Below are positions 42,964 through 54,787 of a DNA stretch of 54,787 bases, in pieces. Positions within the stretch are counted from its first letter, which is position 1. Every line of letters begins with the position of its first letter. Below the pieces are notes generated by a model. That model made no database searches. It worked only from the letters and a program-made list of their open reading frames with translations, and had not been told where the DNA came from. A program made the translations under genes and the position numbers. The DNA is from Chloroflexi bacterium OHK40. Its GTDB lineage: Bacteria > Chloroflexota > Chloroflexia > Chloroflexales > Chloroflexaceae. Location: the NCBI GenBank assembly GCA_004367505.1, contig SFCB01000226.1, positions 1 to 54,787 of the forward strand, written 5' to 3'.

Positions 42964-43007
42964 CGTAGGGTGAAGCCCGGAGCGATTGAGCACCACGAGC
43001 ACCCGCC

Positions 43008-43958
43008 ATGCCCGATACCCCACGCCCATCCGCGCCCCGGCTGATCGTCCGGCTCCACGCGCTGCTGGAGGCCCTCCGTGACGGCCCTCGCGAGCTCGGT
43101 GAGCTCATCGCCATGCTCGGCGCGGCCTACCCCTCGGCCGCGAGCATACGGCGCATGCTCGACCGCGACCTGCACGATCTCGCCGCCCTCGGCATCGAGG
43201 TTGAGCGCCGCACCCGGCCCCTCCGCTACACGCTCCGTGGCGGCCTGCCGGTCTTCAGCACCGACGAACTGCGGGTGCTCGCGCTGATCCGCGACACCTT
43301 CGACCCACGGCATCCTCAGGCCGCGCAGATTGGCGCCCTGCTCGCGCGCCTCACGGCCGCCCTCACACCCCGGGAGCGGCAAGTCTACGAGCAGCGGAGC
43401 GTGCGTCGCGCGCCGGTCCAGCCCGCGATCGACTACGCGCCCTATGCCGAGCTGATCGCGCAGTTGGAGCGTTGCATCGCGGTGCGCCAGCCGGTGCGCT
43501 TTCGCTACCTCCCCACCAGCGGGCGCGAGCGGCTGCACGCCGAGGTGGAGCCCTATGAGATCGAGTTCTTCGACCGCCACTTCTACCTGGTGGGTCTCAC
43601 CTCGCTCAGCCGGCAGATCCTCGACTTCCGCATCGACCGCATCCGCGAGCTTAGCCCGCTGGAGCAACGTCGCCCGCCGGGGAGCGATCGACCCCGGCCA
43701 CTGATCCGCTTCCGCTACCGGCTGGCAGCGGCCCTGGCCCGGGGCGAGTTGAGCCAGCGCTTCGAGCGTCAGCAGGTGGTCGAGCGACTGGCGAATGGCG
43801 ACGTGATCGTCGAGGCCGAGGGCCGCAGCGCATTCTTTATCGTCCAGACCATCCTGCGCTACCGGGGCAATGCCGAGTTGCTCTGGCCCCCGGCGCTGCG
43901 TGAGCAGATCGCCGAGGAGGTGCGGAAGCTGGCGGCGCTCTACCACGCGGGATCTTGA
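43008..43958 (+). CDS. WYL-domain transcriptional regulator beside the CRISPR-Cas locus
   Basis: The 316-residue product has an N-terminal winged helix-turn-helix (LIVRLHALLEALRDGPRELGELIAMLGAAYPSAASIRRMLDRDLHDLAALGIEVER) and a WYL-type ligand domain (about residues 140-230: VRFRYLPTSGRERLHAEVEPYEIEFFDRHFYLVGLTSLSRQILDFRIDRIRELSPLE), with FYL in place of the eponymous WYL. A C-terminal WCX-like extension follows. In Synechocystis the WYL protein Sll7009 represses a subtype I-D CRISPR locus, so a role as regulator of the operon 500 bp downstream is plausible. The ligand of the WYL domain is unknown. Confidence 0.85.
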   Translation: MPDTPRPSAPRLIVRLHALLEALRDGPRELGELIAMLGAAYPSAASIRRMLDRDLHDLAALGIEVERRTRPLRYTLRGGLPVFSTDELRVLALIRDTFDPRHPQAAQIGALLARLTAALTPRERQVYEQRSVRRAPVQPAIDYAPYAELIAQLERCIAVRQPVRFRYLPTSGRERLHAEVEPYEIEFFDRHFYLVGLTSLSRQILDFRIDRIRELSPLEQRRPPGSDRPRPLIRFRYRLAAALARGELSQRFERQQVVERLANGDVIVEAEGRSAFFIVQTILRYRGNAELLWPPALREQIAEEVRKLAALYHAGS

Positions 43959-44137
43959 GCTCCCCCACGCCCTGGTTCGGCCGCAGGGGGCCGGCGTAGT
44001 CCGCTCCGTCTGTGCGGGCGCGGAACGGGCCTGTGCGCGGGCGAGCGCCATCCCTGGCTAGCGCCGTGGTTCGGGGCGGATGCGCTGCTGAGCCTCTGCG
44101 CCGGCTGCCGCATCGAGAGCCTGCCACGCGCTCCTGT

Positions 44138-44240
44138 CACGCCCGTGGAAATGGGCGTCCAAGGGAGCCTGTGGCCGCGTCAGCGGGGAGGCCGGGTTGG
44201 CGCCTGTGCTTGGGTTCCCGCTTCCACGGGAACGACCCCC
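44138..44240. repeat. FPRKREP-type composite repeat
   Basis: TCACGCCCGTGG..ATGGGCGTCCAAGGG and then GGGTTCCCGCTTCCACGGGAACGAC echo, in the same order, the two hairpins at 5647-5672 and 5703-5729. Confidence 0.65.
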
Positions 44241-44356
44241 ACACGATCGCTTCGCAGGCGGAGTTTGCCCCCGCGCCCTTAACCGTTGTGCCGGCCAGGC
44301 GATCGGTCTGCTCTTGAACTTTCGCGCATTCTGGACTCAGTGTGTCCTGACTGGCA

Positions 44357-44365
44357 TGGTACAGT
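44357..44365 (+). promoter_or_regulatory. Extended -10 candidate for the cas operon
   Basis: TGG TACAGT, about 97 bp upstream of ATG 44462. The surrounding ATGGTACAGT differs in one base from ATGGTACACT in the CRISPR leader (54478-54487). Confidence 0.45.
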
Positions 44366-44461
44366 GGGGGTGTTAGAAAGCGATCCAGAGTCGCTCATAA
44401 AGGCGGTTCCGAATAGTCTATCATGGCCGCTGGTGGCCTGCTGGCATCGAAAGAGGTACCA

Positions 44462-46603
44462 ATGCAGATCACGACGCTCCCGGTCTCCTCGAAGCTCGCC
44501 GACCAGGCTGACGTTCCGCCCGAGATCGCCGCGAGGCTACCTGATGACTGGCGCCTCTCCGCGCATCAGGTGGCCACTTACGCGGCGCTCCGCCACAACG
44601 ACATCGACGTGGTGTTCAACACCGCGATGACGGGGGACGGCAAGAGCCTGGCCGGCCTCTTGCCGCTGCTGGCCGCTCCGCGCCCCACCGGTACGCTCGC
44701 GCTCTACCCGACCAACGAGCTGATCACCGATCAGTTCGCGAGCGTGGCGCACACGTTGCCGCGCTGGGGCCGCCCGGCAGAATGGGCGGGGACGTTGTTC
44801 GGCGCCCGCCTCGATGAACTGACCGCCAGCGTCGAGGAGTTGAGCCGCGCCGAAACGCTCCTGCGCGAGCTGAAGAGCCGGCGCCTCGTGCTCTCTAATC
44901 CGGACATTCTGCACGCCATCCTTCAGTTCCGCTATCAGCAGCGTGGGCGTACGCCCACCCACATCGTCGGCCAGTTGCCGCTGCTGTTCGAGCAACTGAC
45001 CTTCGACGAGTTCCACATTTTTGAGACACCGCAGGTGGTGGCGGTGCTGACGGGGCTGCTTTTCCTCGCTACCCAGCGCCCGGCCCCGAAGACGCTCTTT
45101 CTCTCCGCCACACCCTCCCGCGAGCTCGAGGAGTTGCTCCAGCGTACGGGCTTGAGCGCCCGGCTAAAGGTGGTCGCGCCACAGCGCGAGGGCTGGTATC
45201 ACCACGGCGTGCATCCGGGCGACGGTTGGCGCCCGATCCTGGCGGAGAGCGCGATCACCTTCGCGCCCCAGACCGCCGAGGAGTGGCTCGACGCCGGGGG
45301 CGAGCAGGCCATCCTGCGCTGGTTCAGCACGCACCGGCCAGGCGCACGGGCCGCGCTGATCGTGAACTCGGTGGCGACGGCGCTGCGTCTCGTCGAGCGC
45401 CTCCGCCCGGTGCTCGCCCGGGAGGGGCTTGCGGTTGAGCCGAACACCGGGATCACCGGGCGCCAGGTTCGCAACGCATCATACGCGGCCGATCTTCTCG
45501 TTGGCACGTCCACCGTCGATGTGGGCGTGGACTTCCGGATCAACCTGCTGATCTTCGAGGCCCACAGCGCCGGCACGTTCCTCCAACGCCTTGGCCGGCT
45601 CGGCCGCCACACCAGCTTCCGCGACCGCGACGGCCACGAGCAGCGTTTCGGCGCCTTCGCCGCCTACGCCCTGGTGCCGGCGTTCGTCTACGAGCGGCTC
45701 ACCGAGCCAGTAGCCGGGCAGGCGCCGCCCCTGCGCGATGGCGCGACCCTCACCCGCGAGCAGCTCGCGACGGTGATCGAGCAGGTTTTCCCCAAGCCGG
45801 CAAGCTTCGACCAGTACACCCGGCTCTGGGGCCGGTTTGTGCCGGCCAGAGTGTACCAGGAGCTTTCGCGCAAGGAGACGCGCGTTGCCTTTGCCACGGT
45901 GCGCGAAGAACTGAAGCAGCAGTACTACAAGCTCACCGGAACAAGTGTTGTGAAGGCATGTCGGGAGTGGGAGGCGTATGAACAGCAGGGCGAGGGATTG
46001 CTCATCGCCGAGGCGCAGGCGTTTCGTGGCGGCAGCCCCTTCGACTGCGGCGTGATCAAGGACGAGGAGGGCGATGTGGTCACATACGACCTGTTCTGGC
46101 TGCTGGCGAATGGCCGGCTGGAGCCCTTGAGCCTTGAGGCGTTCTGCGCTGCGGTGCGCGCGCTCGGCAAGCCCGACGCCCCGTATCGACGCGGTTTTCA
46201 ACGGTACTTCTTCCGCTGGCTGGGCTTGCGGCCGCAGCGCGAGCAAGTACGGGTCGTCCTGCCACCGGATGTCGCCCGCTGGGGGCCAGACAAACACCAG
46301 GTCGCGGTGGTGCTCCCGGGGATCACGGTAGACTGCGCCGGCCACGAGTTTCTGCTCCGTCTCAATCAACGGCTCAGCGACACGCCGTGCGTGGGATTGA
46401 TCGTCCCGGCGGTCGAGCCCCGGCAGCTCCGGCGGCGGCGCTACCTTCCGCCCAGCATCCAGCTCTGGCCGTACCGCGCCGACGCCGGCGACGCCGGCGA
46501 GCAGACCGGGAGCGTCGCCTTTGGCCGTGATGCGCTCCTGCTTGATAGCAAACTGCGTAGCAGGCCCCTCGGTGGCAAGCCAGAGGCGCCAATCATTTTC
46601 TGA
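44462..46603 (+). CDS. cas3: CRISPR-associated helicase Cas3 (subtype I-D, without HD domain)
   Basis: The 713-residue product is a superfamily 2 helicase: motif I TAMTGDGKSLAG (about residues 54-65), motif II FDEFHIF (DEFH, about 181), motif III LFLSATPS (about 213) and C-terminal helicase motifs in TSTVDVGVDFRINLLIFEAHSAGTFLQRLGRLGRH. The HD nuclease usual in type I Cas3 is absent, as expected for subtype I-D, where HD lies in Cas10d. It should unwind target DNA bound by the I-D Cascade. AAAGAGG precedes ATG 44462, preferred over ATG 44423. First gene of the operon; cas10d starts 13 bp after its stop. Confidence 0.92.
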   Translation: MQITTLPVSSKLADQADVPPEIAARLPDDWRLSAHQVATYAALRHNDIDVVFNTAMTGDGKSLAGLLPLLAAPRPTGTLALYPTNELITDQFASVAHTLPRWGRPAEWAGTLFGARLDELTASVEELSRAETLLRELKSRRLVLSNPDILHAILQFRYQQRGRTPTHIVGQLPLLFEQLTFDEFHIFETPQVVAVLTGLLFLATQRPAPKTLFLSATPSRELEELLQRTGLSARLKVVAPQREGWYHHGVHPGDGWRPILAESAITFAPQTAEEWLDAGGEQAILRWFSTHRPGARAALIVNSVATALRLVERLRPVLAREGLAVEPNTGITGRQVRNASYAADLLVGTSTVDVGVDFRINLLIFEAHSAGTFLQRLGRLGRHTSFRDRDGHEQRFGAFAAYALVPAFVYERLTEPVAGQAPPLRDGATLTREQLATVIEQVFPKPASFDQYTRLWGRFVPARVYQELSRKETRVAFATVREELKQQYYKLTGTSVVKACREWEAYEQQGEGLLIAEAQAFRGGSPFDCGVIKDEEGDVVTYDLFWLLANGRLEPLSLEAFCAAVRALGKPDAPYRRGFQRYFFRWLGLRPQREQVRVVLPPDVARWGPDKHQVAVVLPGITVDCAGHEFLLRLNQRLSDTPCVGLIVPAVEPRQLRRRRYLPPSIQLWPYRADAGDAGEQTGSVAFGRDALLLDSKLRSRPLGGKPEAPIIF

Positions 46604-46616
46604 AAGGGCTTCACCG

Positions 46617-49600
46617 ATGCACGTCGATCCTCAATCTGATGACACCGCTGAGTTTTCGCCAGAGCCCTACGACGAGACCGAAGATCTTTCCGAAGAGCAG
46701 GCAGAACGGCTAAGCCGTCGTGACGAGCCCGAACGACCGGTGTTGAGCCCGGAGCCGCTCTTCGCCGTGCTCCTGCGTGAAGCTCTGGCGCGTATGGCCC
46801 CGGACGACGTGGTGCTGGCCGACTATGCATTGCACGTCGCGCCCAGGCTCTCGGCGTTGCTCGGCCATGTCGCGGCCAAGGGTGGCGACTTCGTGGTGCG
46901 CAAGCGCGAGGCCGGCGCTCCTGCCGAGGAGGTGGAGCGCTATGGCGACGACCAGAGCATGCGCGCTCATATCGTCAACGGTCTCTTGCCGACGGCGCGG
47001 GTTGCGCGCACCCTACTGCGGTGGAAGTGCCGCCGCTTCGTCGACGACTTCGACGAGATGACCGAGCGTCTTTTCTGCGCTGGATATACCCTCCACGACT
47101 GGCTCAAGCTGCCGTGGGTAGACGCAGAGCTGCACGCTGTGGGTCTTGCGCATCACACCGTCAATCTCGCGGTACACCTGTCGGATGTTGAGCGGATCGT
47201 CAGCGCGTGGTGCGAGCGCCTGGGGCTCGACGCCTTCCTCGCCCCGATCGGTGGCCTGGCGGTGCACCTGCACAACCTGCTGTATATCGCCACGAACACG
47301 CAACTCCAATGGGGCACGATGCACAACCTCGCCGCGCTGCCCGGCTTGCGCCCCCACGGGCGCGCCCTGTCGTTGGCGACCGACCTCTCTACCCTGGCGG
47401 ATTACCTGGCCTATCTGGGCCGCACCCCGGTGGATGCCGCGCAGCACCAGGCCATCCGGCGTATGTTCGAGCAGTTCGACGACGGCGTTGTTGGCCCCCG
47501 GCTGACCTACCACCATCTGGCTGATGTACGCGGCGTGCTCACGAGCGTGATCAACAACGCCGCCGTCACGGCCTTCTCGGTGCCCGATCAGCGCGAGCCG
47601 CTGCTCTACGCTCCCACCGGCGTAGTCTACCTGGAGCGGCGCGGCGCCCCGCCCGCTCCGAGGGTGACCGACGTGGCCGACGCGGCACTCGCCCGCATCC
47701 GCGAGCTCTGCCAGCGCCAGTTGTCCGCGAACCTGACCGGCTTTGGTCGCGATGGGAAAGGCATTAAGTACGCCGACTACTACCAACTCTTCTTCTCGCC
47801 GCGCGAGTTGGCCCGCCTGGTGGCGGCCTTCGCCGAGCGGCGCATCGTCGGGAAAGAGGCCGCGGCCGGTAAACGGTATGCCAGTATCGCGGCAAAGGCG
47901 ATGGCCCCGGCTGGTGTGGATCTCGATCTCCCCGCTGAGCTGGAGGTGGATCGCATCGCCGAGAGCTGCGCGCTGCTCGTGAAGATCGCGGCCGAGGCCG
48001 CGCCTGATCTCGACGCCGAGGGCCTCCTGCTCACGCGCATGGGCCTGGAGAAGCTTCGCGAGACGGTACGCCGCATCAACGGCCACAAGACCGCCGGCGG
48101 CGTTCCCTACGGATGGTACTACGCGGCGGGTGTCTACCGCCAGCGCACCCCCGGCCTCGATGAGCAGCAGTGGATCGAGCGGATGCACACGCTCGCGGAG
48201 GCCGTCGCGGAGCGGCTTCCCGACACGCCGCCTACGGGCGCGGCCGGCTGGAGCGAGTTGCGCCGTTACGTGGTCGATCACCTGCGCTTCGACGCCTCCG
48301 CGCCGGAGTCGCTGAGTAACCGGCTCCAAACCGAGCTCGCCCGCTACAGCGGCGCCCGCAAAAGCGGGCGTGGGGCGACCACCGTCTGCGCGCTGTGCTC
48401 CTCGCCCTACAGCGTCAGTGTCCAGCAGGAGGCGGCGATCCTCTTTGCCCCCATGGTCTACACCAACAAGCAGCCGCTCCACGGTAACAAGGCCATCCGC
48501 CATATCTGCGCGGTATGTGGCGCCGAGATGATGCTGCGCCAGCTCTTGATGAAACGTGGCCGCGAGAGCGGCGGCAACTTCGAGAAGCGCAAGCTGCGCT
48601 ACCTCTCCTTCTACCCGACCTACTTCTTCACCCCGGAGAGCCTGCGCATGCTCCGGGCGCTCCAGGATCGGCTCCGCCGCGTGAGTTTCACCGCGCTGCG
48701 GGGGCTGCTACTGCCGCCCGATGCTCCCGCCGATCGCATCGATCTGAGCCCGGAACTCTTCCAGCGCCTGGAAGAGCTGATGCTCCACCCAAACCAGATC
48801 GCCCGCGACGAGGACGACCGGCTCTTTCGCCTGCGTTTCCCCGAGAGCGAGCCGATCACCTTCAGCTTCGTCGGGATACCCCCCGCCGAGCGCGACGCCA
48901 AAGATGCCGAGGCGTGGGTCAACCCGGCCTTCCTGGCCCTGGTGCTGCCGCTGCTATTCGACGTAAAGGTGGTGGCTAGCGAGAGCCTGTTGCCGATCAT
49001 CCAGGAGGCCACCGAGCTACCCGAGACGGTAGCCTTCGACGGGCCGCACGCCTTCGTGGGGCGCCTTGCCCGCCGGTCCCGGCTCAATCTCGACGAGGTG
49101 CTGCCCGCGCTGCAGCGCCTCACCGTCAGCTACTTCGTCCATCTCGAAGGGAATGCTAGAGGAGGGGCGGGCGGCTACGACTATCGTTGGCACGAACTCC
49201 CGGCTGTGGCACGCAACCTGGAGACCTCGCCGCTCTACGCCTTCCACTACCTGAAGAAAGGGTTGCGCCGGGAGAACGTCGATGGCCTGCCTGCCGGCAA
49301 GGCCGCCCTCTATGTCGCGCTGGTCGAGCAATACCTTGAAGATGGGAGGAACCAGATGTCCCACGCCCGCGAGCTCGTGCGGCTCTACCGCCAGTTCTAC
49401 CGTCATAAAGGCAAGTCCAACACCAACAGCGTGCTGCGCCCGCTCAGCGAGGCCACCGGGGTGATCCTCGAGGCCGACCTGGGGCTCTTCGATGACGACG
49501 AGGCGCTCGTGGAGGCCGTGCGCGGCCGCCTGGAGCAGTTCATCGAGAACGTTGGACGGGGCACCGCCGATGGGACCGTACCGGTCTGGCTCTATGAGAA

Positions 49601-49829
49601 GGAGCGTGTCCGCGACGAACTCGCCGCCGCGATCGACGCCTTCGCCCGCTATGTCGTCATCACGATCTACGCCGGGGTGTTCCGGCGCGACCGCGCCGCG
49701 CTCGCTGGCAAGCAGCTCAACCTGCTCAAGAACGCCTGCGAGTCGATCTACATGGCCGAGCAGCGCCGCGAGTGGCGCGAGCGCAACGAACGGCCCGACA
49801 CCGTGCCGGACGATGAGGCCGCCGAGTAG
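46617..49829 (+). CDS. cas10d: Cas10d / Csc3 large subunit with HD nuclease
   Basis: The 1070-residue product has an N-terminal HD-type nuclease with the HD pair in GYTLHDWLKLP (about residues 160-161). A zinc-finger-like segment (CALC at about 591 and CAVCG at about 631) and a long C-terminal helical part follow. In I-D systems this protein is the large effector subunit and carries the DNA nuclease that Cas3 lacks. No GGDD cyclase motif is seen, as in other Cas10d proteins. An in-frame ATG with a ribosome site at 49356 marks a likely internal start for Cas11d (residues 914-1070). The ATG at 46617 lies 13 bp after the cas3 stop. Confidence 0.92.
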   Translation: MHVDPQSDDTAEFSPEPYDETEDLSEEQAERLSRRDEPERPVLSPEPLFAVLLREALARMAPDDVVLADYALHVAPRLSALLGHVAAKGGDFVVRKREAGAPAEEVERYGDDQSMRAHIVNGLLPTARVARTLLRWKCRRFVDDFDEMTERLFCAGYTLHDWLKLPWVDAELHAVGLAHHTVNLAVHLSDVERIVSAWCERLGLDAFLAPIGGLAVHLHNLLYIATNTQLQWGTMHNLAALPGLRPHGRALSLATDLSTLADYLAYLGRTPVDAAQHQAIRRMFEQFDDGVVGPRLTYHHLADVRGVLTSVINNAAVTAFSVPDQREPLLYAPTGVVYLERRGAPPAPRVTDVADAALARIRELCQRQLSANLTGFGRDGKGIKYADYYQLFFSPRELARLVAAFAERRIVGKEAAAGKRYASIAAKAMAPAGVDLDLPAELEVDRIAESCALLVKIAAEAAPDLDAEGLLLTRMGLEKLRETVRRINGHKTAGGVPYGWYYAAGVYRQRTPGLDEQQWIERMHTLAEAVAERLPDTPPTGAAGWSELRRYVVDHLRFDASAPESLSNRLQTELARYSGARKSGRGATTVCALCSSPYSVSVQQEAAILFAPMVYTNKQPLHGNKAIRHICAVCGAEMMLRQLLMKRGRESGGNFEKRKLRYLSFYPTYFFTPESLRMLRALQDRLRRVSFTALRGLLLPPDAPADRIDLSPELFQRLEELMLHPNQIARDEDDRLFRLRFPESEPITFSFVGIPPAERDAKDAEAWVNPAFLALVLPLLFDVKVVASESLLPIIQEATELPETVAFDGPHAFVGRLARRSRLNLDEVLPALQRLTVSYFVHLEGNARGGAGGYDYRWHELPAVARNLETSPLYAFHYLKKGLRRENVDGLPAGKAALYVALVEQYLEDGRNQMSHARELVRLYRQFYRHKGKSNTNSVLRPLSEATGVILEADLGLFDDDEALVEAVRGRLEQFIENVGRGTADGTVPVWLYEKERVRDELAAAIDAFARYVVITIYAGVFRRDRAALAGKQLNLLKNACESIYMAEQRREWRERNERPDTVPDDEAAE
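49356..49829 (+). CDS. cas11d: Predicted Cas11d small subunit, internally translated from cas10d
   Basis: ATG 49356 is in frame with cas10d and is preceded by GGGAGGA with 5-bp spacing, a strong ribosome site inside the gene. The 157-residue product (MSHARELVRLYRQFYRHKGK to the Cas10d stop) is almost wholly helical (EALVEAVRGRLEQFIENV; DELAAAIDAFARYVVI; KQLNLLKNACESIYMAEQRREWRER), as expected of a type I small subunit. In Synechocystis, subtype I-D Cas11d is known to be made by internal translation of cas10d. No separate small-subunit gene occurs in this operon. Confidence 0.65.
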   Translation: MSHARELVRLYRQFYRHKGKSNTNSVLRPLSEATGVILEADLGLFDDDEALVEAVRGRLEQFIENVGRGTADGTVPVWLYEKERVRDELAAAIDAFARYVVITIYAGVFRRDRAALAGKQLNLLKNACESIYMAEQRREWRERNERPDTVPDDEAAE

Positions 49830-49859
49830 CCTGCATATCATCACAAGGAGAACATCGTC

Positions 49860-50891
49860 ATGCTGAGCACCGCGTTCTTCCCCACGGCTGTACCGCCCCG
49901 CCCCAACGGTCGCTACGCTCACATCATCCTGCTGCGCGAAACCGACTCCTACGCTTTGTTCCAGACCGACGGCGAGCTGAACACGGCCCGCGTCCACGCC
50001 GGTGTCGCCAGGGACGAGTTGCTCACCCGCATCACCATGTTCAAGCGCAAGCAGACCACTCCGGAGCGCCTGATCGGCCGCGAGTTGCTGCGCCGCTACG
50101 GCTTGGTGAGCGGCGAGCAGGCCCCCGAGAAGGGCGGCAAAACCGACGAGCGCGGGGTCGCCATTGATACCGCCGGCCTGCCGATCTGTGACTACAACGT
50201 GGAGTTCTGCAAGCAGTGCCCCGACTGTATCAGCTATGGCTTCGCCATCGGCGACGCCGGCTCCGAGAAGTCGAAGGTCTACAGCGACACGGCGTACAGC
50301 CTCAGCGCCTTCGACGCGAGCCACGAAGCCTTCACCCTGAACGCCCCCTATGAGGGCGGCACGATGAGCCGCAAAGGCGAGGTGACCAGCCGGATCAACG
50401 AGCAGGACCATGTGCGCCCCCAAACGCTCTTCCCGGCGGTGATCACCGTCCGCGACCTTACCGCGCCGCTCTTCCTGTATGTGCTGAACAACGTGCTGCG
50501 CACCCGCCGCTACGGCGCCCAGACCACCCGCACCGGCACGATGACCAACCACATACTCGGGATCGCTCTTGCCGACGGCGAGATCTTCTCGAACCTGCAC
50601 TTCACCCAGCGGCTGTACGATCATCTCGCCGCGCGCGCCGCGCTCGACCCGGCGCAACCGATCGCGGTGGATGTCGCCCTGCAGGCGGCCCGCGAGCTGA
50701 TCCCCACGCTGCTGCAAGAGGATCAGGTGGCAGTGACACAGTACCTGGCGGGTGACGAACTGGCTGGCTTCCTCGCCGATTTCGGCGGGCGCACCCGCGA
50801 CGAAGGGGGCATGCGCGAGCTCTTGCAGGCCGCCGCCCGTGACAGCGCAACTTACCACGCCGCCTACATCCAGAAGAAGGGTAAGAAATAG
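49860..50891 (+). CDS. csc2: Csc2 / Cas7d backbone protein
   Basis: The 343-residue product is a Cas7-family protein of the Csc2 group. It begins MLSTAFFPTAVPPRPNGRYAHIILLRETDSYALFQTDGEL and contains the hallmark FCKQCPDCISYGFAIGDAGSEKSKVYSD, with cysteines that can bind zinc, then LNAPYEGGTMSR and RNNV..TRTGTMTNHILGI-type strands. Csc2 copies line up along the crRNA as the backbone of the I-D effector. AAGGAG lies 10 bp before the ATG, 30 bp after the cas10d stop. csc1 follows after 9 bp. Confidence 0.92.
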   Translation: MLSTAFFPTAVPPRPNGRYAHIILLRETDSYALFQTDGELNTARVHAGVARDELLTRITMFKRKQTTPERLIGRELLRRYGLVSGEQAPEKGGKTDERGVAIDTAGLPICDYNVEFCKQCPDCISYGFAIGDAGSEKSKVYSDTAYSLSAFDASHEAFTLNAPYEGGTMSRKGEVTSRINEQDHVRPQTLFPAVITVRDLTAPLFLYVLNNVLRTRRYGAQTTRTGTMTNHILGIALADGEIFSNLHFTQRLYDHLAARAALDPAQPIAVDVALQAARELIPTLLQEDQVAVTQYLAGDELAGFLADFGGRTRDEGGMRELLQAAARDSATYHAAYIQKKGKK

Positions 50892-50900
50892 GAGCGGGCG

Positions 50901-51554
50901 ATGTTTATCTACCGCTGCGAGCTCACACTGCACGAGCCGCTCTTCTTCGCCACTCGCGAGCTCGGGCGGCTCTACGAGACCGGGCGCTACCTGCATAACT
51001 ACGCGCTCACCTACGCGCTCGGTCTTACCAGCTCGCCCTGGTTCCACCGCGAGCAGGTGCCCCACTACGCCGAGGATCTGCGGCCCCTGCGCGAGCAGAT
51101 CTATGTGACGCCCGCCGCCCCGGTTCGCACCGGCTTTCAGCTCGCCACCTTCAAATACGGCGAGGAGATCCTACACGTGGAGATGCGCCAGGCCGAGCGC
51201 AACACCCCATCCTTCGGTCGCGCCAAGGAACTCGCTCCCGGGTCGAGCTTCTGCTGCTACGTGCTCAGCGCCAGGTCGCTAGAAAGGTTGCCGCGCTGGA
51301 TCAGGCTGGGCAAGTGGCACAGCAAGGCGCTGGTGAAGAGCACGCCGGTCAAAGTGATGGAGCGCGACGGCGACTACCTCGCCGCCGCGCCGCTCAACCC
51401 GCTGGATGTCCCGGAGGGTGTGCTCCGCGCCTTCGATATCATCTCCATGCCGCCGGCGAGCCTGGTGGCCAACGCCCGTTGCGTTGGCAGCCACTACGCC
51501 CTGGATGGCGGACGCGGGCTGCCCGTAGGCATGGCCTACACCTTCCCGAGTTGA
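50901..51554 (+). CDS. csc1: Csc1 / Cas5d subunit
   Basis: The 217-residue product is a Csc1-type Cas5 protein. It begins with the RAMP-like strand MFIYRCELTLHEPLFFATRELGRLYETGRYLHNYALTYALGL, where GRYLHNYAL is characteristic of Csc1, and ends ALDGGRGLPVGMAYTFP. Csc1 caps the 5' handle end of the crRNA in the I-D complex. GGAGCG lies upstream of the ATG at 50901. It sits between csc2 and cas6 in tight spacing (9 and 15 bp). Confidence 0.9.
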   Translation: MFIYRCELTLHEPLFFATRELGRLYETGRYLHNYALTYALGLTSSPWFHREQVPHYAEDLRPLREQIYVTPAAPVRTGFQLATFKYGEEILHVEMRQAERNTPSFGRAKELAPGSSFCCYVLSARSLERLPRWIRLGKWHSKALVKSTPVKVMERDGDYLAAAPLNPLDVPEGVLRAFDIISMPPASLVANARCVGSHYALDGGRGLPVGMAYTFPS

Positions 51555-51569
51555 AAGGGGCTGCTCCCG

Positions 51570-52400
51570 ATGAGCGACTTCCCCGATCTCTACGCCTTTG
51601 TCGTGCGCCTGCACCCCCTACCCAACGGCCCGGCGCTCCGCCCCCAGGGTCATGGCCTTCAGGCGCTCTTTCTCGATCTTCTCGCCCAGGTGGATCCACC
51701 CACCGCCGAACGCCTGCACGCCGACGCGCCCAGCAAGCCCTACACCGTCGCCGCCCTACCCGCTCGCCGGCGTGACATGGTCGAGCTGCGCGTCTCGCTG
51801 CTAGACAGCGCTCTCTTCAAGCCCTTTGTCAACGCGATGCTGCGCCAGATGCCCGGCGAGGCGCCGCTCCGCCTCGGCCGCGCCAGCCTCATCGTCGGCG
51901 ACGTGATTGGCACCCCTGCCCCGAACGGTCACCCCTGGGCAGGCTACGCCTCCTTCGCCGAGCTCCACGCCCGCGCCGAGCCGGCCCACACCGTAGCGCT
52001 TGAGTTTGCCTCGGCCACCGCGATCGGCCAGGGTTCCCGCCCCGATGGCAAACAGCGCCTGGCCATCCTCCCCGACCCGGCGCTGATCTTCCCGAGCCTG
52101 GCCCGACGCTGGAACGAGCTCGTACCCCGCGCCGAGCTCCGGCTCGACAAGGAGTTCGTCGAGGCTGCCGCCAGAGACACCCTGATCGCGCGTTATCGCG
52201 CCGAAGCGGTGGAGATCAGCCTTGGGAAGGGTCCCCAGAAGGGCTTCGTCGGCGTTGCCGCCTACGAACTGCCGGGCGACCCGGCCCAGGCTCGCGCGCT
52301 GGCCCTGCTGGCCGACGCCGCGCTCTTCCTCGGGGTGGGCATCAAAACTGCCCGTGGCATGGGCCTTTGCCGGCGCATCAACGAGCGGGAGTTGCGCTGA
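51570..52400 (+). CDS. cas6: Cas6 crRNA-processing endoribonuclease
   Basis: The 276-residue product has two ferredoxin-like halves. His28 in PQGHGLQALFLDLL is the likely catalytic residue, and the C-terminal glycine-rich loop GVGIKTARGMGLCRRI is the classic Cas6 signature. It should cut the repeat RNA at the base of its hairpin, 8 nt upstream of the spacer, leaving an ATTGAAAC-type handle; the repeats in this window end in ATTGAAAC. AAAGGGG lies upstream of the start. Its TGA overlaps the ATG of cas4 by one base. Confidence 0.9.
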   Translation: MSDFPDLYAFVVRLHPLPNGPALRPQGHGLQALFLDLLAQVDPPTAERLHADAPSKPYTVAALPARRRDMVELRVSLLDSALFKPFVNAMLRQMPGEAPLRLGRASLIVGDVIGTPAPNGHPWAGYASFAELHARAEPAHTVALEFASATAIGQGSRPDGKQRLAILPDPALIFPSLARRWNELVPRAELRLDKEFVEAAARDTLIARYRAEAVEISLGKGPQKGFVGVAAYELPGDPAQARALALLADAALFLGVGIKTARGMGLCRRINERELR

Positions 52401-53020
52401 TGGTCGCTCAGATTGGCCCCCCCGAGCACATTCCCCTGGCCATGCTCAACGCCCTGGCCTACTGCCCGCGCCGCTTCGGCTACGAGTTCATCCAGGCCGA
52501 AATGCTCATCAACGAGCATGTCGCCGAGGGCGCGCTGCGCCACCAGGGCGTCGATCTCGGTGGTGGTGCATGGCCAGGCGACGCCGTGCAGGAGCGGCGA
52601 GTCTATGTCTGGAGCGAGCGGTTGCGGGTGGCCGGCTTCTGCGATCTGGTGGAGCTACGCGGGGGTGAGCGCTACCCCGTAGAGTACAAAAAAGGCCGCC
52701 CGGGCCGCTGGAAGAGCGACCACGTGCAGCTCTGTGCCCAGGCGCTCTGCCTGGAGGAGCGCACCGGCGCGCGGATCAGCCGGGGCTTCATCTTCTACTT
52801 CGCGGCGCGGCGGCGCGAGGAGGTGCCATTCACCGCCGAGCTGCGGGCGGAGGTAGAGCGACTCGCCGCCGAAGCCCACCGGCTGGTGGCTGCCGGAACC
52901 CTTCCGCCGCCAGTGAACAACCCGGCCAAATGCCGCGACTGCTCACTGGAACCGCTCTGCCTACCCGACGAGCTCCGCCGGCTGGCCGCCGGAGCCGGCT
53001 GGGAGGGGGAGGAGCCATGA
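52400..53020 (+). CDS. cas4: Cas4 adaptation exonuclease
   Basis: The 206-residue product is a RecB-like nuclease with the iron-sulfur cysteine set: Cys22 in ALAYCPRRFGYEF and a C-terminal cluster CRDCSLEPLC (about residues 178-187). The catalytic pattern is GFCDLVEL (Asp, about 80) and YPVEYKKG (Glu-x-Lys, about 95), followed by the QxxxY-like helix HVQLCAQALCLEE. Cas4 trims prespacers and checks the PAM before integration. The ATG shares a base with the cas6 stop and its own TGA overlaps the ATG of cas1. Confidence 0.92.
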   Translation: MVAQIGPPEHIPLAMLNALAYCPRRFGYEFIQAEMLINEHVAEGALRHQGVDLGGGAWPGDAVQERRVYVWSERLRVAGFCDLVELRGGERYPVEYKKGRPGRWKSDHVQLCAQALCLEERTGARISRGFIFYFAARRREEVPFTAELRAEVERLAAEAHRLVAAGTLPPPVNNPAKCRDCSLEPLCLPDELRRLAAGAGWEGEEP

Positions 53021-54090
53021 TCGAAACCATTGGTAGCGGCGTGGAGATCTGCATGGCAACACTCTATCTCACCGAGCAATACAGCGTGGTAAAGCTCGAA
53101 GGCGAGGCGCTACGGGTGCAGCCCTCGGGTGGACGGGCCGGGCAAGTGCTGCGCGTGCCGCTCAACAAAATCGAGCAGGTTATGGTGCTCGGCGAAGTCA
53201 CCCTCACCACACCAGCGCTCCACACCCTCATGGAGCGGCGCATCCCCGTACACTACCTCACCGCCCCGGGGCGCTCGCGCGGGGCCCTGATCGCCGACTG
53301 GGGGAAGAACAGCGGCGTCCGGCTGGCCCAGTATGCCCTCTGCCGCGATGTCGGGCGCAGCTTCGCCGTCGCGCGGCAATGCATCGCCGGCAAGCTGCTC
53401 AACATGCGCACCCTGCTCCTGCGCTACGCCCGTGGTCGTGACGACAGCGCGCCACTCCTGGAGGCCGCCCAGACCATCCGGCGCTGCCTGCGTGAGCTGG
53501 CGCGGCTTGAGCCCCCGGCCGACGTGAGCGACCGCATGCACGGACTCGGGCCGCTCCTGGGGCTGGAGGGTGGTGGAAGCAGCGCCTACTACAGCGTCTT
53601 CGGCCAGTTGCTGAAGGGCGCCTGGCACTTTCCCGGGCGGGTCAAACGCCCACCGACCGACCCGGTCAACGCGCTGCTGTCGTTCGGCTACACCCTGCTC
53701 ACCAACCAGACCCTCTCACTCATCCACGCGGTAGGGCTCGACCCGGGGCTAGGCGTACTGCACCAGCCGGGCTTCGGCAAACCGGCCCTTGCCCTGGACC
53801 TGGTAGAGTGCTTCCGGCCGATCGTGGTCGACTCCGTCGTTGTCACGATGATCAACACCGGGCAGCTCACGGCGGAGGACTTCGTGGAGGAGCTAGGGGC
53901 ATACCGGCTGAAGGACGGGCCACGGCGAAGCTTTATCGAGAAGTACGAGGCGCGGCTGAACGAACAGGTACAGCACCCACTCTTTGGCTACAGGGTCAGC
54001 TACCGGCGCTGCATCGAGCTACAGGCGCGGATCTTTGCCAAGCATGCCCAGGGCGAGATCGCCGGCTACGTCCCATTCACGGTACGATAA
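53017..54090 (+). CDS. cas1: Cas1 integrase
   Basis: The 357-residue product has the Cas1 layout: beta-rich N-terminal domain (ATLYLTEQYSVVKLEGEALRVQ) and helical catalytic domain with Glu in GLEGGGSSAYYSVFGQLL, His in GVLHQPGFGKPALALDLVE and the following Asp. Together with Cas2 it integrates new spacers at the leader end of the array. ATG 53017 overlaps the cas4 stop as ATGA and has GGAGGGGGAGG before it; ATG 53053 (MATLYLTE) would give the more usual 345 residues and cannot be ruled out. Confidence 0.94.
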   Translation: MIETIGSGVEICMATLYLTEQYSVVKLEGEALRVQPSGGRAGQVLRVPLNKIEQVMVLGEVTLTTPALHTLMERRIPVHYLTAPGRSRGALIADWGKNSGVRLAQYALCRDVGRSFAVARQCIAGKLLNMRTLLLRYARGRDDSAPLLEAAQTIRRCLRELARLEPPADVSDRMHGLGPLLGLEGGGSSAYYSVFGQLLKGAWHFPGRVKRPPTDPVNALLSFGYTLLTNQTLSLIHAVGLDPGLGVLHQPGFGKPALALDLVECFRPIVVDSVVVTMINTGQLTAEDFVEELGAYRLKDGPRRSFIEKYEARLNEQVQHPLFGYRVSYRRCIELQARIFAKHAQGEIAGYVPFTVR

Positions 54091-54101
54091 GGAGTGGAGC
54101 G

Positions 54102-54395
54102 ATGGGGAGCTCGACACCGGCGACACTCTACATAGTGGCGTACGACATTCCCGACGACAAACGCCGGACGAAGGTGCACCGCCTGCTCTGTGGCTACGGC
54201 CAGTGGACCCAGTACTCGCTCTTCGAGTGCTGGCTCACACGGCGGCAGATCATCGAGTTGCGGGCGAAGCTCGCGCGGCACCTGGTGACCGAGCGTGACA
54301 GCATCCGGCTCTACCCACTGTGCGGCGGCTGTCAGGGCGGAGTGGTCACCATGGGCGGGGCGAAGCCAGCCGACCCGGTGACGGTCATTATATGA
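54102..54395 (+). CDS. cas2: Cas2 integration subunit
   Basis: The 97-residue product has the ferredoxin-like fold ATLYIVAYDIPDDKRRTKVHRLLCGYGQWTQYSLFECWL, with the conserved Asp in YDI. The C-terminal part ends in PADPVTVII. It forms the Cas1-Cas2 complex with Cas1, whose gene stops 11 bp upstream. AAGGAG lies upstream of the ATG. It is the last cas gene, with the CRISPR leader directly after it. Confidence 0.94.
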   Translation: MGSSTPATLYIVAYDIPDDKRRTKVHRLLCGYGQWTQYSLFECWLTRRQIIELRAKLARHLVTERDSIRLYPLCGGCQGGVVTMGGAKPADPVTVII

Positions 54396-54587
54396 GCGGC
54401 GCGAGCAGCGAAGCATGGGGCAACTCCCTGGGAGTCGCTCGCATGGAACGATGGGGCTTCCCAACGCCATACCGCGTATGGTACACTACTGGTGGGCAGG
54501 CGATACACGGGCCGTGCTGGCGTCGCTCAGGCAGGTGCTCGCATGTGTCGCCCGCAATCGCATCAGGACGCGGTCGCGAGCGCGACG
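54396..54587 (+). promoter_or_regulatory. CRISPR leader
   Basis: 192 bp between cas2 and the first repeat. It contains a palindrome ACTCCC-T-GGGAGT (54423-54435), an extended -10 TGG TACACT (54479-54487) and a perfect inverted repeat GTCGCG-AG-CGCGAC (54573-54586) that abuts the first repeat. Its position matches a leader at the transcription start of the array. Confidence 0.7.
54479..54487 (+). promoter_or_regulatory. Extended -10 promoter in the CRISPR leader
   Basis: TGG TACACT with a predicted start near 54494, about 94 nt before the first repeat. Nearly the same decamer occurs before cas3. Confidence 0.5.
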
Positions 54588-54787
54588 GTTTGACCGCACC
54601 CCAATCCGCCCGGCGGATTGAAACAGAGTTCGTTGTGCGTGACCTGGCGTTGGCTGTCCAGGTTTGACCGCACCCCAATCCGCCCGGCGGATTGAAACCT
54701 CCAGCTTTTCCACCGCCCCGCCGCCCTCCCACTGGTTTGACCGCACCCCAATCCGCCCGGCGGATTGAAACCCACCAGTCTACCACC
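54588..54787 (+). CRISPR. Subtype I-D CRISPR array, first three repeats (cut by window end)
   Basis: Identical 37-nt repeats at 54588-54624, 54662-54698 and 54735-54771 start GTTTGACCGCACCCC and end GGCGGATTGAAAC; all are preceded by G, so the unit could be 38. Spacers are 37 and 36 nt; a third runs into the window end. CAATCCGCC-C-GGCGGATTG inside the repeat is a perfect 9-bp palindrome that would fold as the Cas6 hairpin, and ATTGAAAC would be the 5' handle. Orientation is the same as the cas genes, with the leader at the left. Confidence 0.97.

Follow-up and report, generated by a model that had tools for sequence, protein, structure and literature searches.

The window, by which we mean the whole analysed stretch of 54,787 nucleotides, contains a type I-D CRISPR-Cas operon that belongs to a relative of Chloroflexus (the window genome and G008 fall in the same family). 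The type assignment follows from matches above the cut-offs to TIGR03174, TIGR03157, TIGR03159 and TIGR03158, that is Cas10d/Csc3, Csc2, Csc1 and a separate Cas3'. The features of the locus are the following:

44423..46603, forward strand: cas3' helicase (TIGR03158, E 1.8e-60), with a start possibly at ATG 44462
46617..49829, forward strand: cas10d (csc3), large subunit, 1070 aa from ATG 46617 (TIGR03174, E 1.2e-113; PADLOC Cas10_Id, E 2.4e-196; 7sba_I, E 1.2e-64)
49344..49350, forward strand: internal Shine-Dalgarno (SD) sequence GGGAGGA, read from the sequence, -10.2 kcal/mol to the canonical anti-SD
49356..49829, forward strand: cas11d, putative internally started small subunit of 157 aa, sharing frame and stop with cas10d
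49860..50891, forward strand: cas7d (csc2) (TIGR03157, E 7e-87)
50901..51554, forward strand: cas5d (csc1) (TIGR03159, E 1e-51)
51570..52400, forward strand: cas6 (TIGR01877, E 6.1e-13, below cut-off; Pfam PF10040 above cut-off)
52367..53020 (ORF bounds, exact start not settled), forward strand: cas4 (TIGR00372, E 3.3e-35)
52930..54090 (ORF bounds), forward strand: cas1 (TIGR00287 above cut-off; TIGR04093, E 2.7e-112, just below cut-off), with a likely start at ATG 53017, where the SD reaches -11.0
54144..54395 (the stretch searched; 54144 is no start codon), forward strand: cas2 (TIGR01573, E 5e-12)
54587..54787, no strand assigned: start of a CRISPR array, three repeats spaced by 74 and 73 nt and cut by the window end

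An Rfam search of positions 43000-54787 gave no match at the gathering score.

The Cas11 domain forms the C-terminus of the cas10d product, and at its boundary lies an in-frame start codon with a ribosome site, provided that the anti-SD is canonical. As the original prediction had it, ATG 49356 shares the reading frame of cas10d (46617-49829), and GGGAGGA (49344-49350) stands five nucleotides (ACCAG) upstream of it. The anti-SD tail was assumed to be canonical for all pairing energies because the window assembly yielded no 16S rRNA, either by pattern search or with Rfam. With -10.2 kcal/mol, the internal site was rightly said to surpass several starts of the operon, namely those chosen for cas10d (46617, -4.7), csc2 (-8.3), csc1 (-6.9), cas6 (-7.9) and cas3' (-7.2 at 44462 or -2.7 at 44423); the compared start codons were picked by us, and four further scored positions that are non-start codons were disregarded. 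The cas1 start at 53017 (-11.0) is slightly stronger than the internal site, and the best of eight candidate starts at the cas10d N-terminus reaches -7.7 kcal/mol. None of the 66 other in-frame ATG, GTG or TTG codons of the window ORF that lie more than eight codons away matches the internal site, and its strength is attained in 1.2% of 1000 synonymous recodings. Predicted mRNA accessibility round the ATG shows no excess over the synonymous null, as 42% of 200 recodings are as open or more so.

The product of this start has the properties foreseen for a type I small subunit. Its AlphaFold model consists of six helices (mean pLDDT 87.3), and its 157 residues compare with 146 in the Synechocystis Cas11d chain. 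By sequence it matches that chain (7sba_J) with an E-value of 0.0016, residue 5 being aligned to residue 9, and 7sba_J is likewise the best match of the predicted structure in the PDB (E 1.0e-4, probability 1.00, TM 0.76/0.81), followed by the same domain within Cas10d of 7sbb and 7sba; beyond these Cas11d and Cas10d chains, the fold search of the PDB found no match at E 0.001. Sequence and fold thus both identify the product as Cas11d. No separate small-subunit gene was detected, in line with the original prediction for the operon: the 157-residue product matches a single place in the window genome at E<=1e-5, the locus itself, in a search that could miss a highly diverged copy.

Expression of Cas11d from an in-frame start inside cas10d is reported for Synechocystis, and the available text of a review written by its discoverers describes it as apparently widely conserved across Cas10d lineages, one of which is called 'predominantly other bacteria', and cas11d as apparently fused to cas10 with its own start kept (PMC10212523). 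In the available part of another article, type I-D is described as lacking a cas11 gene (PMC7689449). In Synechocystis the stoichiometry is Cas10d1:Cas11d2 (PMC9123187), and several Cas11d subunits form part of the minor filament and are needed for dsDNA binding (PMC9123187; PMC11899642). The I-D Cas11d of Synechocystis PCC 6803 (7sba chain J; McBride et al., 2020) shares with the window product the in-frame start near the cas10d 3' end, the domain, the fold and the operon type. However, the window product starts at a methionine some four codons further downstream than that of Synechocystis, at the same domain boundary but at a different codon, the SD reaches -10.2 rather than -5.2 kcal/mol, the phylum is another, and the window product is predicted whereas that of Synechocystis is experimental. 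The Synechocystis site is in fact among the weaker ones (-5.2), and 9 of 47 other codons are as good. The archaeal I-D system of Sulfolobus islandicus has a small subunit of 14 kDa that copurified with Cas10d; the sole comparison made with it, that of the window product with Cas10d 6yes_B, gave an insignificant fold match (E 2.1). Cas11b and Cas11c of types I-B and I-C follow the same principle of a small subunit within the large-subunit gene (PMC11899642), their host gene being cas8 instead of cas10d.

Whether the internal site is maintained beyond the window can be judged from its relatives. Among 158 genomes of the class, 34 gave a match to TIGR03174, as did 39 of 400 drawn from the phylum, 20 of the latter being further ones, which makes 54 different Chloroflexota genomes. 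A usable fused C-terminus is present in 41 of them; left out were G021 (broken frame), ten loci in which the gene is split, G455 (an orphan ORF) and G328 (in which a Cas11 part could not be located). Seven cyanobacterial sequences from 13 plasmid records brought the sample to 48 fused genes, the records H7 (the same as G085), H3, H9, H10, H12 and H13 remaining outside it. When these 48 Cas10d (Neff 20.7) are scanned along the whole protein for SD-start pairs, the internal place is by far the strongest, with a weighted mean of -9.02 kcal/mol and 86% of the weight at -6 kcal/mol or better; the second-best place, near the N-terminus, reaches -4.40, and the background is -1.35 (sd 0.96). The same stretch holds a site at -6 kcal/mol or better in frame in 42 of the 48 genes, in the +1 frame in 9 (with ORFs of 1-28 codons) and in the +2 frame in none. 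Stanieria has no convincing site (-0.9 kcal/mol), and G005, G022, Synechocystis, Gloeothece and Picosynechococcus 7002 are also weaker than -6 kcal/mol. We do not claim that the internal site is generally stronger than the N-terminal start, since no more than 19 of 34 genes have an internal site that surpasses their best N-terminal candidate.

Compared with other segments of its own gene, the internal site stands out at p<0.05 in 38 of the 44 genes that could be taken, four short contig pieces having too few control segments. Grouping at 60% identity leaves even the worst member below 0.05 in 15 of 19 clusters; of the four that miss this level by their worst member, three are the cyanobacterial ones other than Pseudanabaena. 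The combined p of this test (2e-21) is only indicative, the clusters still being related, and the same applies to the combined synonymous recoding of all 48 genes (Fisher p 4.5e-17), from which relatedness was not removed. Taken singly, many genes show no significance by recoding (e.g. P 0.77 for G027 and 0.73 for G024) because the encoded residues themselves favour the motif. Close relatives have not lost the site or the ATG, a loss that would have spoken against the internal start. The window clade of 18 comprises 13 rows of the tree described below plus G002, G011, G017, G030 and G021, placed by alignment, and all 17 scorable genes, among them three contig-end pieces and G017, which is broken further upstream, have an ATG and -6.5 kcal/mol or better. 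The eighteenth member, G021, in which the frame is broken at this place, keeps AAGGAGGGAG and the ATG. The cas10d frames of G021 and G017 contain stops or frameshifts (L051:2560-2760; L014/L049) with the internal site intact in both, and sequencing error is possible since the record titles give low coverage.

The site also persists across the Chloroflexota, and it does so while its codons and peptide change. The SD falls in codon phases 0, 1 and 2 in 18, 14 and 15 of 47 genes (Stanieria, without motif, is not counted), which indicates that selection acts on the mRNA site rather than on the peptide. The residues encoded at the SD range from G-R and R-R via K-G and G-G to E-E and E-A, yet the spacing from SD to start is 4-8 nt in 44 of the 47 genes. 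The start codons picked in the 48 genes are ATG in 37, GTG in eight and TTG in three (in G046 an ATG directly follows the picked TTG), a choice that is partly by construction, the script taking the best such codon in a stretch of 11 codons, and for which the per-gene segment test controls. It could be argued that the methionine and the G-rich codons are kept for protein reasons only, as a linker before the Cas11 domain and with no internal translation. Indeed, M, H, A and E of the stretch MSHARE are invariant in the window clade (11 of 11 rows), and synonymous recoding often recreates the SD. However, outside the clade the residues differ, the SD occupies every codon phase, and V or L stands at some starts as GTG or TTG; a constraint on the peptide alone would not give varying residues, phases and start codons, and we consider it very unlikely.

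Shine-Dalgarno-like motifs can pause ribosomes, and the motif sits at a domain boundary, so that it might aid the folding of Cas10d between domains as a pause site, the start codon being incidental. Yet a pause site could do without a start codon at a set distance, whereas such a codon does occur in frame, and seldom in the other two frames; the narrow spacing likewise argues against a role in pausing only, which makes this scenario extremely improbable. Free Cas11d could instead be a proteolytic fragment of Cas10d, as type I-B fragments were once taken to be (PMC11899642), but proteolysis explains neither why an SD is conserved while its codon phase changes nor why cas11d is an ORF of its own in the split loci described below, and we give it next to no credence. 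An internal start thus remains by far the preferred reading: two proteins very probably come from cas10d, the smaller one through a further ribosome start in the last part of the gene. What the analysis demonstrates is the site, its nucleotide-level conservation and the homology of the product to Cas11d, and from these we infer the translation, assembly and function of Cas11d at the window locus. Ribosomes starting at or near 46617 would make full-length Cas10d, while others would bind GGGAGGA at 49344-49350, start at ATG 49356 and release a free Cas11d of 157 residues in the same frame, such that Cas11 copies would exceed Cas10d copies in the complex. By homology to the Synechocystis I-D Cascade, this Cas11d would join the Cas10d C-terminus in the minor filament and stabilise the displaced strand of the R-loop. 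We are highly confident, judging from the sequence comparisons, that cas10d is read twice in this manner and that the start at ATG 49356 yields free Cas11d. The view that the mechanism is kept in a phylum distant from Synechocystis is supported by the conservation, but the surprise attached to it was overstated, as wide conservation in type I-D is already set out in a review (PMC10212523).

A different arrangement is found in ten Chloroflexota I-D loci (genomes G089, G178, G203, G211, G219, G226, G254, G289, G331 and G475; loci L101, L102, L103, L104, L105, L107, L081, L082, L090 and L092), where the Cas10d match stops short of the Cas11 domain, which is carried instead by a separate ORF just downstream. 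The Cas10d ORF measures 873-913 codons from stop to stop and the separate ORF 148-229 codons, with a possible cas11d start at most 82 nt from the cas10d stop; two of the loci, those of G475 and G178, have the cas10d stop and the cas11d start interlocked in an ATGA, immediately preceded by a purine-rich site. The neighbours are I-D genes in G203 and G178, the two of the ten that were checked. In five of these genomes (G178, G203, G089, G226, G331) the separate ORF matches the end of the PADLOC Cas10_Id model PDLC01588, within positions 732-856 of 859 (E 4.2e-17 to 3e-23), and the earlier part of the model, up to 729-734, matches Cas10d of G178 and G203, the two tested. The split loci thus have the same domain at the same operon place as the window, with PDLC01588 divided between two genes where tested, but their Cas10d terminates ahead of the Cas11 domain, which has a gene of its own, cas11d, whereas in the window the two are fused. 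The separate ORFs are unnamed by NCBIfam (tested for G203 and G178) and by Pfam (tested for G178, G203, G226 and G089). A comparison by hhalign of the profiles of fused (A1) and separate Cas11d (A2, five of the ten, the L107 row lacking the first Met) gave a weak result (probability 3.7), and the link between the two forms rests instead on PDLC01588 and on the Cas10d model, into which part of these sequences may have entered when it was built.

A quick-method tree of the Cas10d core was computed from 49 rows (39 fused, nine split and G328); it has two very long branches (G086 and G328) and does not set the direction of the split. In it the nine split rows group together (SH-aLRT 99), next to nine fused rows. 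This points to one change, and fission would be the simpler course with a root placed among the fused forms. In the literature searched, a scope without the primary report of McBride et al. (2020), we came across no account of cas11d as a gene of its own in type I-D, and the available part of PMC12669027 does not mention separate cas11 genes in I-D. It is tempting to propose, and we somewhat favour the idea, that type I-D exists in two architectures, mostly with an internal start that selection on the mRNA maintains even as the ribosome site shifts codon phase and, in one Chloroflexota group, with a separate cas11d, so that the fused Cas11 copy would be dispensable and a single frameshift at the start codon might interconvert the two.

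The mechanism itself is known and its breadth already stated in review, and the window locus is a further case rather than a new mechanism; the parts for which we found no earlier statement are the phylum-wide evidence at the nucleotide level and the split loci. The former is strong comparative evidence, beyond the experiments in Synechocystis, for a functional internal Cas11d start across a whole phylum, and eukaryotic rebuilds of I-D systems should receive Cas11d supplied separately. In the split loci, a natural test is available of whether a Cas11 domain fused to Cas10d is required, and of the way in which fused and separate small subunits interconvert in class 1 systems.

Several minor observations concern individual genomes. 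The 10.7 Mb genome G455 has an orphan Cas11d-like ORF of 196 aa (L106:8193-8783, reverse strand) that matches TIGR03174 at 879-945 (E 3e-5), and the ten ORFs tested there include no further cas family; a remnant or a new use is possible. G089 holds two Cas10d-like genes (L035, L036), the copy on the other contig being an ORF of 637 aa. On a Pseudanabaena plasmid, a gene resembling the HsdR N-terminus (L075:4109-4720) separates cas10d from cas7d within the I-D operon. Regulators with a WYL/WCX domain are found upstream of both the fused I-D operon (window 43008-43958) and the split operon of G178 (L102:3656-4807).
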